The notes below the pieces were generated by a model. It was not told the origin of the DNA. It saw only the letters and a list, made by a program, of their open reading frames with translations, and did not search any database. 64,000 nucleotides of DNA from Mesorhizobium sophorae (GTDB taxonomy: Bacteria > Pseudomonadota > Alphaproteobacteria > Rhizobiales > Rhizobiaceae): contig NZ_NNRI01000001.1 in NCBI RefSeq assembly GCF_002270415.1, positions 186,001 to 250,000 of the forward strand, read 5' to 3'. Positions 17,082 through 24,688 of the stretch are shown in pieces. The position numbers and the translations under genes are program-made. How positions within the stretch are numbered: the stretch's first letter is position 1; the number at the start of each line of letters is the position of its first letter.

Positions 17082-17396
17082 ATGAGCTACATAGCAGGGT
17101 TTGCGGTCATGGAAGTCGCCGTTAGAGGCGTCTTACCTATCGGCGATACGACCGAAAACGTGCCTTATTTTATTCTGGACACGGCCAAGAACGCCATCGT
17201 CGGTCAGGTCGTTCTTCCCAAAGCCGTCAAGCGAAGCCTCGCCGTCGCTCTCACTGTCAAGGTTCCAGCCGCAGCCGGCTCATTTGCGATTGGCACGTTT
17301 GAAGATGGCGGGAATTTCCAGGCCTGCAGCTTCCTCCGCGTAGAGAGCCCTGCTGTCAAACATCCCGACGGCGCCGTCGGCCCGTCCGGAAGATGA
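17082..17396 (+). CDS. Stand-alone beta-type domain protein, rod-less paralogue of the collagen proteins
   Basis: A 104-residue protein. The ATG at 17082 follows AGGAGA at 17070-17075; a longer frame from 17004 has no such site. The sequence aligns with the segment between DUF4347 and the collagen rod in its neighbours: [18 protein letters not shown] matches YFVVDRDHGTIVGNLNLP and [18 protein letters not shown]. Its Met aligns with the internal M-G-Y at the end of DUF4347 in the 258-residue paralogue. It ends G-A-V-G-P-S-G-R, exactly where the collagen repeats begin in the long paralogues. No signal peptide is visible. The function is unknown; it may be an oligomerisation or capping module. 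Confidence 0.75.
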
Positions 17397-17490
17397 CGGC
17401 GCCCGTGCTCCTTCTCCCCACGACCGCTCGCCGGCCAAGCCGGTGGGCGGTTTCCCCTTGAATCGAATTCGAAGCCAACAGGAGCCAGTC

Positions 17491-20400
17491 ATGGCCCGTG
17501 CCTCTGAAATTCTCTTCGTGGATCCTTCAGTCTCCGACCTCGAGACGGTTCTCGGCAATTTGCGACCGCAGGTCCAGGCTGTCGTGCTCGATGGCCGCCG
17601 GCCGGCCGCACAACAGATCGCTGCCGCGCTCGCAGGGCACGAAAGCCTCGATGCGATCCATATCATGGCACATGGCGCGCCTGGCCGGGTTGGCTTCACG
17701 TCCGGAGAGTGGTCGACCGGGACGTTGAAGGAAGCGGCTGACGATTTTGGCGCGATCGGCAGGGCGCTTGCCGCGGACGGCGAGCTGCGGCTGTGGAGCT
17801 GCGAGACGGCGTCAGGGGATGCGGGCGAGACCTTCGTGGCGGCGCTGGAAGAGGCCGTCGGCGCGGACGTCCGTGCATCGAGATCGCTGATTGGTGCAGC
17901 CGCCTTGGGCGGCTCCTGGGAACTGTCCGCACGTGCAAGCGCGCCCGTGCCGCCACTGACCCCAGATGGAATGGCAAATTACGCCGGCGTGCTTGCGGTT
18001 GATCTGACGATCACTGGCAACTTGACCATCCAGAACGGCTCCTCAACTATTAACACCTACTACTTAATCGATACAACATTAAGTCCTCATGTTTTGGTTG
18101 GCAGCTTTCCGCTTCCACAATCGGGTCACAACGTTGCCAGCGAATTTGCTATAACGATAACAATACCGGATCCAACTCATACCTATCAAATTTATGACAG
18201 CGGCTTCAATTTGTTCGGCACACTTACGCCTGGCGTCGGCAATTCTTACGTTTTAACGGACGGCCCTGTCTTTGGTCCTGCCAACGGCAACGGGGGCAAT
18301 CAATTCGATACGGGTACTTTCAGCACCAGTACAGTTGGCGCGACGGGCCCGGCAGGCCCGACCGGCGCTACGGGAGCGACCGGCGCGGGTGCGACCGGGG
18401 CCACGGGTGCAACTGGAGCGACGGGCGCGACAGGAGCTACTGGCACAGGTGTGACCGGAGCCACAGGTGCGACCGGCGCGAGCGGCCCGACCGGTGCGAC
18501 TGGCGCGAGCGGCCCGACCGGTGCGACTGGCGCAAGCGGCCCGACCGGTGCGACTGGCGCGAGCGGCCCGACCGGTGCGACTGGCGCGAGCGGCCCGACC
18601 GGTGCGACTGGCGCGAGCGGCCCGACCGGTGCGACTGGCGCAAGCGGCCCGACGGGTGCGACGGGCGCGAGCGGCCCGACGGGTGCGACTGGCGCGAGCG
18701 GCCCGACGGGTGCGACTGGCGCAGGCGGACCCACAGGTGATACCGGCGCCACGGGTGCAACGGGTTCGACTGGCGCAGGCGGCTCGACCGGAGCCACGGG
18801 CGCGAGCGGCTCGACGGGAGCGACTGGCGCGAGCGGCTCGACGGGAGCGACTGGCGCAGGCGGAGCCACAGGTGATACCGGCGCCGCAGGTTCCACTGGC
18901 GCCACGGGTTCTACAGGCGCGACGGGCGATACCGGAGCGACTGGCTCGACCGGCGCCGCCGGTTCGACCGGAGCGACTGGTTCGACAGGTGCGACTGGCG
19001 CGACGGGCGACACCGGAGCCGCGGGCTCTACTGGCGCAACCGGAGCCACAGGTGCGACCGGCGCCACGGGTGATACCGGAGCGACTGGCTCGACCGGCGC
19101 CTCCGGTTCGACAGGTGCGACTGGCGGCACAGGTGCAACAGGAACCACGGGTGCAACGGGCTCTACCGGAGCGACCGGCTCGACTGGTGCCACCGGTGAT
19201 ACCGGAGCCGCGGGCTCCACCGGCGCAACCGGAGCCACAGGTGCGACCGGCGCCACGGGTGATACCGGAGCGACTGGCTCGACCGGCGCCTCCGGTTCGA
19301 CAGGTGCGACTGGCGGCACTGGTGCAACAGGAACCACGGGTGCAACCGGCTCTACCGGAGCGACTGGCTCAACTGGTGCCACGGGTGATACTGGAGCGAC
19401 TGGCTCGACCGGCGCCTCCGGTTCGACCGGAGCGACTGGTTCGACAGGTGCGACTGGCGACACTGGTGCAACAGGAACCACGGGTGCAACGGGCTCGACC
19501 GGAGCGACTGGCTCGACCGGCGCAACCGGCGACACCGGAGCGACTGGCTCGACCGGAGCAACTGGCTCGACAGGTGCGACTGGTTCGACTGGTTCGACTG
19601 GCGCAACTGGCTCGACTGGCTCGACTGGTTCGACTGGAGCAACCGGCTCGACCGGAGCCACCGGCTCGACTGGTGCGACTGGCTCGACTGGTTCGACCGG
19701 AGCAACCGGCTCGACCGGAGCCACCGGTTCGACCGGAGCGACAGGCTCAACCGGCTCGACTGGCGCAACCGGCTCGACCGGAGCCACCGGCTCGACTGGT
19801 GCGACGGGTTCGACTGGTTCGACTGGCGACACCGGTTCGACCGGAGCGACAGGCTCGACTGGTGCGACAGGCTCAACCGGCTCGACTGGAGCAACCGGCT
19901 CGACCGGAGCCACCGGCTCGACTGGTGCGACTGGCTCGACTGGTTCGACCGGAGCAACCGGCTCGACCGGAGCCACCGGTTCGACCGGAGCGACAGGCTC
20001 TACCGGCTCGACTGGCGCAACCGGCTCGACCGGAGCCACCGGCTCGACAGGTGCGACGGGTTCGACTGGTTCGACCGGCGCAACCGGCTCGACCGGAGCC
20101 ACCGGCTCGACTGGTGCGACGGGTTCGACTGGTTCGACCGGCGCAACCGGCTCGACCGGAGCCACCGGCTCGACTGGTGCGACGGGTTCGACTGGTTCGA
20201 CTGGAGCGACTGGTTCGACTGGAGCAACCGGCTCGACCGGAGCCACCGGCTCGACGGGTGCGACTGGCTCGACTGGTTCGACCGGCGCAACTGGCTCGAC
20301 AGGTGCGACTGGCGACACTGGTGCAACGGGTTCGACTGGCTCGACTGGCGCCACCGGTTCGACGGGAGCGACAGGCTCAACCGGCTCGACAGGAGCAACC

Positions 20401-23403: not shown

Positions 23404-23426
23404 CTAATTTTCGATTTTACTAATGT
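23404..23426 (+). promoter_or_regulatory. Conserved 23-bp upstream element, copy 2
   Basis: Same element as 16441-16463 with one difference (C for A at the tenth position). It lies about 486 bases before the next gene. Repetition before each gene block suggests common control. Confidence 0.55.
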
Positions 23427-23911
23427 GTGACACGGGGTGTGTCCGTAGGTCGCGCGGTAGGGTTGCCGACGTCCTGCGAAGTTTTGGGGAAGGATCTGGG
23501 GGTCGTTAAGCCACATCGCGGGCGATGATGGAGGCGCGTTCTTTGAGCGCGCCTTGAAAGCCGCGTCAACGTTGCCCGCCCACGGAGGCGGACAGGTTTC
23601 CCGTTCCAGAGTTCCCTCGCGTTTGGACGCCGATCCGTCGGCGTGACCAGTGGCGGGAGTGTGTCGTGGGTGGGGTGAGATTGCGTGCGAGTTGGGTCCG
23701 GCGCGGAGCGATTTCCGGCGTCGATAGGTCCGCAATCCGACAGCGGCGACGGACCGCCGCAGCCGGCGGCTGGCAGCTTGGCCGCCGCTGTTCCGCCCTC
23801 CATGAAAATCTCAGCACCGCGCGGCCTGCCCGCGCGCCCGACCCCGTCGTGCCGGGCGTCGCCGGCGGATGCTCTCAGCTTGAACCCAGTTGGAACCAAC
23901 GGGATCTCGCC

Positions 23912-24688
23912 ATGGCCAGCGCCACCGAACTCGTTTTCGTCGATCCCTCGGTATCCGATCTAGGCAAGATCCTCGGCAATTTGAGGCCAAGGGTCGAGGC
24001 GATCGTGCTTGATGCCAAATCCCCGGCCGCGCGCCAGATGGCACGGGCGCTCGAAGCTCGTGACCGCCTCGACGCCGTGCACGTGATCGCGCACGGCGCG
24101 CCCGGGCGGGTGTGCTTCGCGGCCGGCGATTGGTCGGCGCGCACGCTGCAGCACGATGAGGCCGATCTCGCCACGATCGGCCAGGCATTGGGTGGCTCCG
24201 GCGAGCTGCTTCTGTGGAGCTGTGACGCGGGCGCCGGCGCTGCCGGAACCGATTTTGTCGATGCGCTGGCGCGCGCGGCGGGGGCGCCGGTTGCGGCCGC
24301 CACCGACCTGGTTGGGTCGCCGACGCTCGGCGGACGATGGAAACTGACAAGGAACACCGCGGCGCGGGCGCCGCTGACGGAGGAGGGTATCATGGGCTAC
24401 GCAGCAGTGCTTGCCGCGATCGAGATCACGATCTCCGGCTTGATCCCAACCGGCATGACGGGCGGCTCGACGACCTACTTCGTGGTCGACAGGGACCACG
24501 GCACGATCGTTGGCAACCTCAATCTGCCGAACATAGCCAACAACGCCTTCCGGATCGCCGTCAGGGTGCCGGGCGGAGCGACGAGCCTCGACGTCGGCGT
24601 CTTCGACGAAAGCGGCAAGTTCACCTCGGCTGGCTTCACCGTGGATGTGCCCGCGCGTCCATCCGGCGCCGTCGGGCCGAAGGGGTGA
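23912..24688 (+). CDS. Rod-less DUF4347 plus beta-domain protein
   Basis: A 258-residue paralogue of the N-terminal part of the collagen proteins. I chose the ATG at 23912 because M-A-S-A-T-E-L-V-F-V-D-P aligns with the start of protein A. The upstream frame from 23666 is unsupported. DUF4347 covers residues 1-168, with His61 and Cys104 at the same positions as in both collagen proteins. The beta-type domain covers about 168-258 (ITISGLIPTG, TYFVVDRDHGTIVGNLNLP). It stops at P-S-G-A-V-G-P-K-G, where a collagen rod would begin. It has neither rod nor secretion tail, so it may stay in the cell, or be a truncated relic or a regulator of fibre assembly. Confidence 0.8.
   Translation: MASATELVFVDPSVSDLGKILGNLRPRVEAIVLDAKSPAARQMARALEARDRLDAVHVIAHGAPGRVCFAAGDWSARTLQHDEADLATIGQALGGSGELLLWSCDAGAGAAGTDFVDALARAAGAPVAAATDLVGSPTLGGRWKLTRNTAARAPLTEEGIMGYAAVLAAIEITISGLIPTGMTGGSTTYFVVDRDHGTIVGNLNLPNIANNAFRIAVRVPGGATSLDVGVFDESGKFTSAGFTVDVPARPSGAVGPKG

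Follow-up and report, generated by a model that had tools for sequence, protein, structure and literature searches.

A rod-less, head-only gene lies upstream of giant collagen-like genes in Mesorhizobium and may encode a cytoplasmic partner of their heads

BclA and BxpB, a collagen-like rod protein and its small rod-less beta partner, belong to the exosporium of Bacillus spores. To our knowledge neither type I secretion nor DUF4347 is part of that system, and how Gram-negative cells export kilo-residue collagen-like proteins without a premature triple helix is, as far as we know, an open question. The structure of BxpB is described as closely resembling the C-terminal domain of BclA, and BxpB as trimeric. 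A DUF4347 domain is carried by PA0256 (Tce1), as stated in one article (PMC8262886); in a second, Tce1 and Tce2 are presented as putative cysteine proteases whose His/Cys dyad is aligned to TcdB, and the toxicity of Tce2 in yeast is reported to be relieved by mutation of the predicted site, Tce1 having shown none (PMC13323088). The stretch analysed here, which we call the window, is 64 kb of the 8.05-Mb assembly of Mesorhizobium sophorae (contig NZ_NNRI01000001.1, positions 186,001 to 250,000), and it encodes two giant collagen-like proteins headed by DUF4347 and a beta domain, each preceded by a short gene without the rod. The likeness to BclA and BxpB is one of arrangement, and the locus differs in that the partner gene lies directly upstream of the giant.

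We propose that the shorts are dedicated, conserved partners of the giants' beta head, acting as cytoplasmic decoys or chaperones that would delay trimerisation before type I export, a reading to which we give a probability of roughly 0.4. All four genes lie on the forward strand: a beta-only short of 104 residues (17082..17396), giant 1 of 1859 residues (17491..23070), a DUF4347-beta short of 258 residues (23912..24688) and giant 2 of 2257 residues (24800..31573), both giants comprising DUF4347, beta domain, collagen-like rod and conserved tail. Frames and Pfam domains thus bear out the modular series described in an earlier note on this DNA. DUF4347 (PF14252) was found in the 258-residue short and both giants (E 1e-37 to 1e-40; in giant 1 at 17509..17994, E 3.1e-40), with 129.4 bits for the short and 134.3-138.2 for the giants against a Pfam gathering cut-off of 24.6, and these are the only three places in the assembly where it was detected. 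The 104-residue protein matched no Pfam family at E 0.01, so it has no DUF4347.

Both short frames are present and end as that note quoted them, in DGAVGPSGR (stop at 17396) and SGAVGPKG (stop at 24688). It had placed these stops at the first collagen triplet; the rod-less end holds, and the position needs correcting, since two G-X-Y triplets precede the stop, which falls just after the second. Long G-X-Y tracts are confined to the giants, whose rods, counted in tracts of at least five, hold 479 triplets with Thr at Y in 452 (giant 1) and 605 with Thr at Y in 591 (giant 2). The constant trait of all shorts, here and in the relatives described below, is the absence of a rod. A frameshifted giant was ruled out as the source of either window short, as no rod follows before the next giant. 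The list of open reading frames (ORFs) offers longer frames from TTG 17004 and GTG 23666; ATG 17082 and ATG 23912 were preferred, the former because it has a Shine-Dalgarno-like site and is common to all 35 aligned orthologues. For the giants, ATG 17491 and ATG 24800 are the most likely starts, the former being supported by a spacing of 83-100 nt behind the beta-only stop in all 35 loci.

The beta-only gene is widely conserved. Among 146 same-genus genomes, its own included, 47 match the 104-residue protein and 44 carry the full beta-only gene (relatives 65-97% identical); the other three have the DUF4347-beta form only (G134, G094) or are cut by a contig end (G081). Thirty-five of the 44 loci were analysed by script, G132, G112 and G018 were inspected separately, and G048, G056, G068, G069, G070 and G090 were judged from match coordinates alone. 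The ratio of nonsynonymous to synonymous substitution (dN/dS) has a median of 0.162 for the beta-only gene (517 of 595 pairs with usable dS). With gaps counted as differences, the short averages 81% identity, compared with 72% in the DUF4347 and 48% in the beta region of the giant, and in 580 of 595 genome pairs the short is better conserved than that beta region. In 35/35 loci the beta-only stop is followed at 83-100 nt by a giant with an intact DUF4347 head. The beta-only unit is mostly first in its block; because another giant's tail precedes it in two loci (L100 of G015; L165 of G112, contig C35), the two units of short and giant can evidently change places. The observation is not due to chance, as many genomes, one per species, keep the gene and its dN/dS is 0.16.

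Partnership of the short with a beta-headed giant is well supported. Of 62 collagen giants in the loci examined, 57 carry a beta domain, and each of these has a rod-less beta match at most 1 kb upstream, whereas the five without a beta domain have none (Fisher p 1.5e-7 for the 57/0/0/5 table, uncorrected for relatedness), a "short" in this count being a profile match within 1 kb and not a gene checked case by case. A contig end truncates one short of the sample (L138). In the five beta-less giants other long inserts stand before the rod, which starts at residue 717-975. A search for the same short/long pairing elsewhere, as the earlier note had advised, found it genus-wide, in a single genome from a different family of the order, and in a metagenome-assembled genome (MAG) of an alphaproteobacterium.

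The 258-residue query matches 54 genomes of the genus, 47 of which match the short, while five have a 128-residue form and two (G028, G043) were left aside. The five (G116, G107, G078, G027, G138) encode DUF4347-collagen giants and show no match to the 104-residue protein, and in 5/5 a 128-residue ORF stops 39-75 nt before the DUF4347 match. Four of these ORFs start with M-x-SAVxFADP, resembling the start of DUF4347 by eye, and a beta-like domain follows; their dN/dS is 0.49, so constraint is weaker. As a separate observation, DUF4347 matches lie within open frames of more than 7,000 codons in G028, G043 and G138:C66.

We sorted the shorts into classes: A, beta-only with a first-type giant; S, DUF4347-beta shorts like that of the window; B, of 288-295 residues; C, the 128-residue form; and D, that of G889. 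Assignment by hidden Markov models (48 A, 4 B, 5 C) was partly circular because the models were trained by locus class, and direct alignment scores were relied on instead, as mean local scores between 54 shorts and 47 of the 54 giant betas (the window's second is among the seven that were not extracted). Class-B shorts score 117 with B giants and 48-68 with others, class-C shorts score 80 with C giants and 36-66 with others, and class-A and class-S shorts score 60-69 with A and S giants alike and 35-39 with B and C. By these scores the beta classes of short and giant agree at locus level for B and C.

Several results weigh against the proposed partnership and role. Besides the profile-based definition of a short in the count of 62 giants, that sample is partly selected, most class-A loci having been fetched because they match the short, and the five giants without a short represent about two independent lineages. 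A pairwise match of each short to its own giant was not seen: the own giant ranks 1 to 38 of 47 for class A (29 loci) and is not favoured by class-S shorts (ranks 9-34, 8 loci) or by the G889 short (rank 31). Agreement of classes could come from common descent of each locus type. In the 258-residue class dN/dS is 0.31 in DUF4347 versus 0.53 in the beta part; with this value and the 0.49 of class C, it is classes A and B that carry the idea of the beta domain as the working part. Trimerisation of the beta domain is assumed, because its fold has no confident match: the beta-only AlphaFold2 model (seven strands; predicted local distance difference test score, pLDDT, 81) has no confident relative by Foldseek or VIA, where the best Z is 4.3, and C1q/TNF heads, FlgD hook caps, carbohydrate-binding modules and lipoxygenases appear in rows of untrusted level. 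BxpB is absent among the structure matches listed for this model, and the A2 profile found no match among PDB sequences at E 1. Lastly, in Bradyrhizobium oropedii (L139, ~9523-9762) DUF4347 remnants (E 1.2e-10) and a shrunken 79-residue ORF, likely a relic of a short gene, stand before a surviving giant, though that giant has no beta domain.

The Bradyrhizobium locus also bears on whether the shorts are functionless seeds or relics of rod expansion or contraction, a suggestion of the earlier note that we consider extremely improbable. The homology of shorts and giants in DUF4347 and beta domain fits it, as does this apparent shrunken relic. In the beta tree, however, the window's two shorts join other rod-less betas in a clade separate from those of the giants (support 96/84); the gene is under purifying selection, its beta-only form is more conserved than giant betas and is spread over many genomes, and shorts are associated with beta-headed giants. 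Truncated copies without conservation are therefore not what the homologues show, since the beta-only gene is truncated yet conserved. For class A the seed or relic reading was rejected on dN/dS, clade structure and linkage.

The beta-only gene itself is a DUF4347-beta gene whose DUF4347 has decayed. A profile from nine shorts detected DUF4347 remnants at most 800 nt upstream of the beta-only gene in 7/35 loci (independent E below 0.01), against 0/175 dinucleotide shuffles and 0/35 stretches further upstream, and in G013 and G102 residues 1 to ~40 and a piece of ~106-149 of DUF4347 remain, the middle being lost. The 36 nt before the start (17046..17081, forward strand in the window) resemble linker codons of DUF4347-beta genes (PPLTEE-like) and now hold the ribosome-binding site of the beta-only gene. 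In the window they are 69% identical to the nearest of 16 DUF4347-beta linker DNAs, with 0/300 mononucleotide shuffles as high; the resemblance reaches p<0.01 in 25/35 loci, the window included, and falls below that level in 10. The old linker codons thus became the ribosome-binding site. G134 and the MAG locus L133, near the beta-only clade in the beta tree, still carry DUF4347. The tree, built on few columns and with bootstrap unsettled, calls for two changes to the beta-only label, since G019 does not join the remaining 34. The G889 genome, of the other family, has a beta short with linker and no DUF4347 core preceding its giant, and its ABC, HlyD and Sel1 genes are placed divergently.

DUF4347-beta shorts may also have an internal start. 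A Shine-Dalgarno-like site with an in-frame ATG stands at the linker in 8/16 DUF4347-beta shorts versus 0/48 giants (Fisher p 2.9e-6, uncorrected for relatedness, the giants being those in which the linker pattern was found); in 40 of the giants Met is missing at this place altogether. The window's 258-residue gene has such a possible second start at the beginning of its beta domain (24379..24394, forward strand, ATG at 24392), and so the beta-only product may already be made from DUF4347-beta shorts. The 16 shorts of the trees and linker tests include a second "short" of G115, of 249 residues, which sits on a long branch among giant betas and probably represents the broken head of a giant; both G115 shorts were excluded from the class dN/dS. 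Elsewhere in the trees, the DUF4347 of the second giants of G007, G103, G019 and G091 (L064/L101, L067/L103, L074/L107, L085/L119) groups with that of shorts; in these giants ~400-600 extra residues replace the beta domain, and no short lies upstream.

The DUF4347 domain resembles a described fold. In the AlphaFold2 model of the 258-residue short (pLDDT 90.6, below 50 in the last seven residues, GAVGPKG), the DUF4347 part best matches Tce1, whose fold is described as TcdB-CPD-like (9qpe_G; Z 11.6, root-mean-square deviation 3.4, 146 residues aligned), which is also the sole Foldseek row below 0.001 (E 8.2e-4). A SAVED-CHAT protein follows at Z 7.9, and caspases, legumain and CHAT proteins at Z 5-6.5 are level with unrelated rows. 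His61 and Cys104 are invariant in 85/85 DUF4347 domains, shorts included. With Tce1, an effector of the Pseudomonas aeruginosa H3 type VI secretion system (H3-T6SS), the family thus shares the DUF4347 domain, the best fold match and the conserved His/Cys pair; Tce1 differs in being loaded into Hcp rings, whereas in this locus DUF4347 forms the N-terminus of collagen-like giants beside type I genes. From these models we infer that DUF4347 may be a TcdB/caspase-like cysteine protease that would act in processing of the giant. In other Rhizobiales (L140-L151) DUF4347 likewise lies near the start of long open frames, with weak ABC or HlyD matches (21-34% identity) near those of L146, L147, L148 and L150; the available parts of these loci, where several frames run off the locus, contain no collagen-like rod, and the 104-residue short was unmatched there at tblastn E 1e-4. 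A literature search, with subscription journals mostly outside its reach, found no paper joining DUF4347 with collagen-like proteins.

The fold and the invariant His/Cys pair, present also in the shorts, together with the constraint on DUF4347 in the 258-residue class, would fit a model in which that form is a free protease that processes the giants in trans, the beta-only forms having derived from it as inactive regulators. We regard this as improbable. The full beta-only form without DUF4347 occurs in 44 of the 47 short-matching genomes, so the protease is not the reason the gene is kept, and each giant has a DUF4347 of its own.

The proposed decoy role depends on how the giants leave the cell. 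In order, the block consists of two divergent glycosyltransferase genes, the beta-only short, giant 1, the DUF4347-beta short, giant 2, and the ABC, HlyD and Sel1-repeat genes. A type I secretion-like ATP-binding cassette (ABC) transporter (31789..34095, forward strand; PF00664 and PF00005) has TIGR01846 as its best NCBIfam family, at 520.6 bits short of the cut-off of 725.55; the HlyD-type type I secretion adaptor (34117..35529, forward strand) passes that of TIGR01843 (428.9 bits versus 208.65). These two genes adjoin the giants, as export genes would adjoin those of type I substrates. By sequence comparison the shorts lack the giants' conserved C-terminal tail, presumed to be the type I export signal, and a short should therefore stay in the cytoplasm. 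There the free beta domain would do the work, with the nascent giant's own beta domain as its partner. With two triplets at most, and so no triple-helix extension, the short would most likely bind the giants' beta heads and hold off their trimerisation until type I export, in which the short itself would stay behind. The decoy step is inferred. The fuller version, in which a head-only paralogue caps the trimerisation heads as a cytoplasmic decoy, the protease domain was shed more than once and the window's linker became a ribosome-binding site, is possible if on the unlikely side.

Alternatively, the shorts could leave the cell and sit at the fibre head as caps, anchors or nucleators that set the register or anchor the fibre. 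The agreement of beta classes between short and giant would suit this as well, and the two end triplets, a common and not universal ending kept (as G..G..G.) in 32/35 beta-only proteins, would fit contact with the start of the triple helix. BxpB, described as a rod-less trimeric partner of collagen-like BclA, is a known precedent. Against this, class-B shorts end in DRGTAR or similar and class-C shorts in FGSGE or similar, without the triplets, and no signal peptide is apparent in the shorts by eye. Type I substrates are described in PMC5018854 as having a C-terminal secretion sequence in common, and absence of the giants' tail from the shorts would favour a role inside the cell over an exported cap. 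We consider export of the shorts unlikely; it remains the main rival to the decoy because BxpB with BclA, the nearest example of a rod-less partner, is an anchor outside the cell.

A further alternative is that the short ORF and a hairpin behind it serve as a cis leader or attenuator of the giant, the protein mattering less. The 83-100 nt spacing is consistent with this, as is a possible hairpin (17422..17452, forward strand) in the 94-nt spacer between short and giant 1, in which 79.7% of cells are paired and 6/14 pairs show compensatory change (34 sequences). Protein-level constraint on the short speaks against a regulatory leader, however; RNAalifold did not predict the hairpin, the terminator scan did not list it, and spacer stability has a median z of -0.64 over 35 spacers (below -2 in 7/35; -2.35 in the window), with -0.80 to 1.75 for the five class-C spacers folded. 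With some covariation, no RNAalifold prediction and no unusual mean stability, the attenuator hairpin was kept as possible, and a regulatory role for the short seems distinctly improbable.

Other genes accompany the block. A Sel1-repeat gene (35577..37316, forward strand; PF08238) lies 3' of HlyD in same-genus loci wherever that stretch is in view. Upstream are two large divergent glycosyltransferase genes of 865 and 1258 residues (9609..15979, reverse strand; Pfam glycosyltransferase matches), the latter fully or partly matched upstream of the short in 37/38 loci, with a giant's tail in its place in G015. With rods that consist almost wholly of G-X-Thr, glycosylation of their Thr residues is an obvious guess. 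At their C-terminal ends (22768-23070 and 31274-31573) giants 1 and 2 are 87% identical over ~100 residues though their beta domains are very different, which suggests strong constraint on the tail or gene conversion. Antisense ORFs of 1443 and 1187 codons (18300-22631 and 25498-29061, reverse strand) mirror the GC-rich triplet repeats and are most likely a by-product of the repeat.

The locus offers a case of a small gene born when its upstream domain was lost, former coding sequence now serving as a ribosome-binding site. It also groups DUF4347, a domain that has received little study, with putative cysteine proteases of the Tce1 type, here heading large rhizobial proteins. The conserved head-only partner, which goes with the giants that carry this head, makes the question of the premature helix testable. 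If the proposed role is true, a head-only paralogue would be a dedicated decoy for a type I secreted collagen, preventing triple-helix zipping before export.

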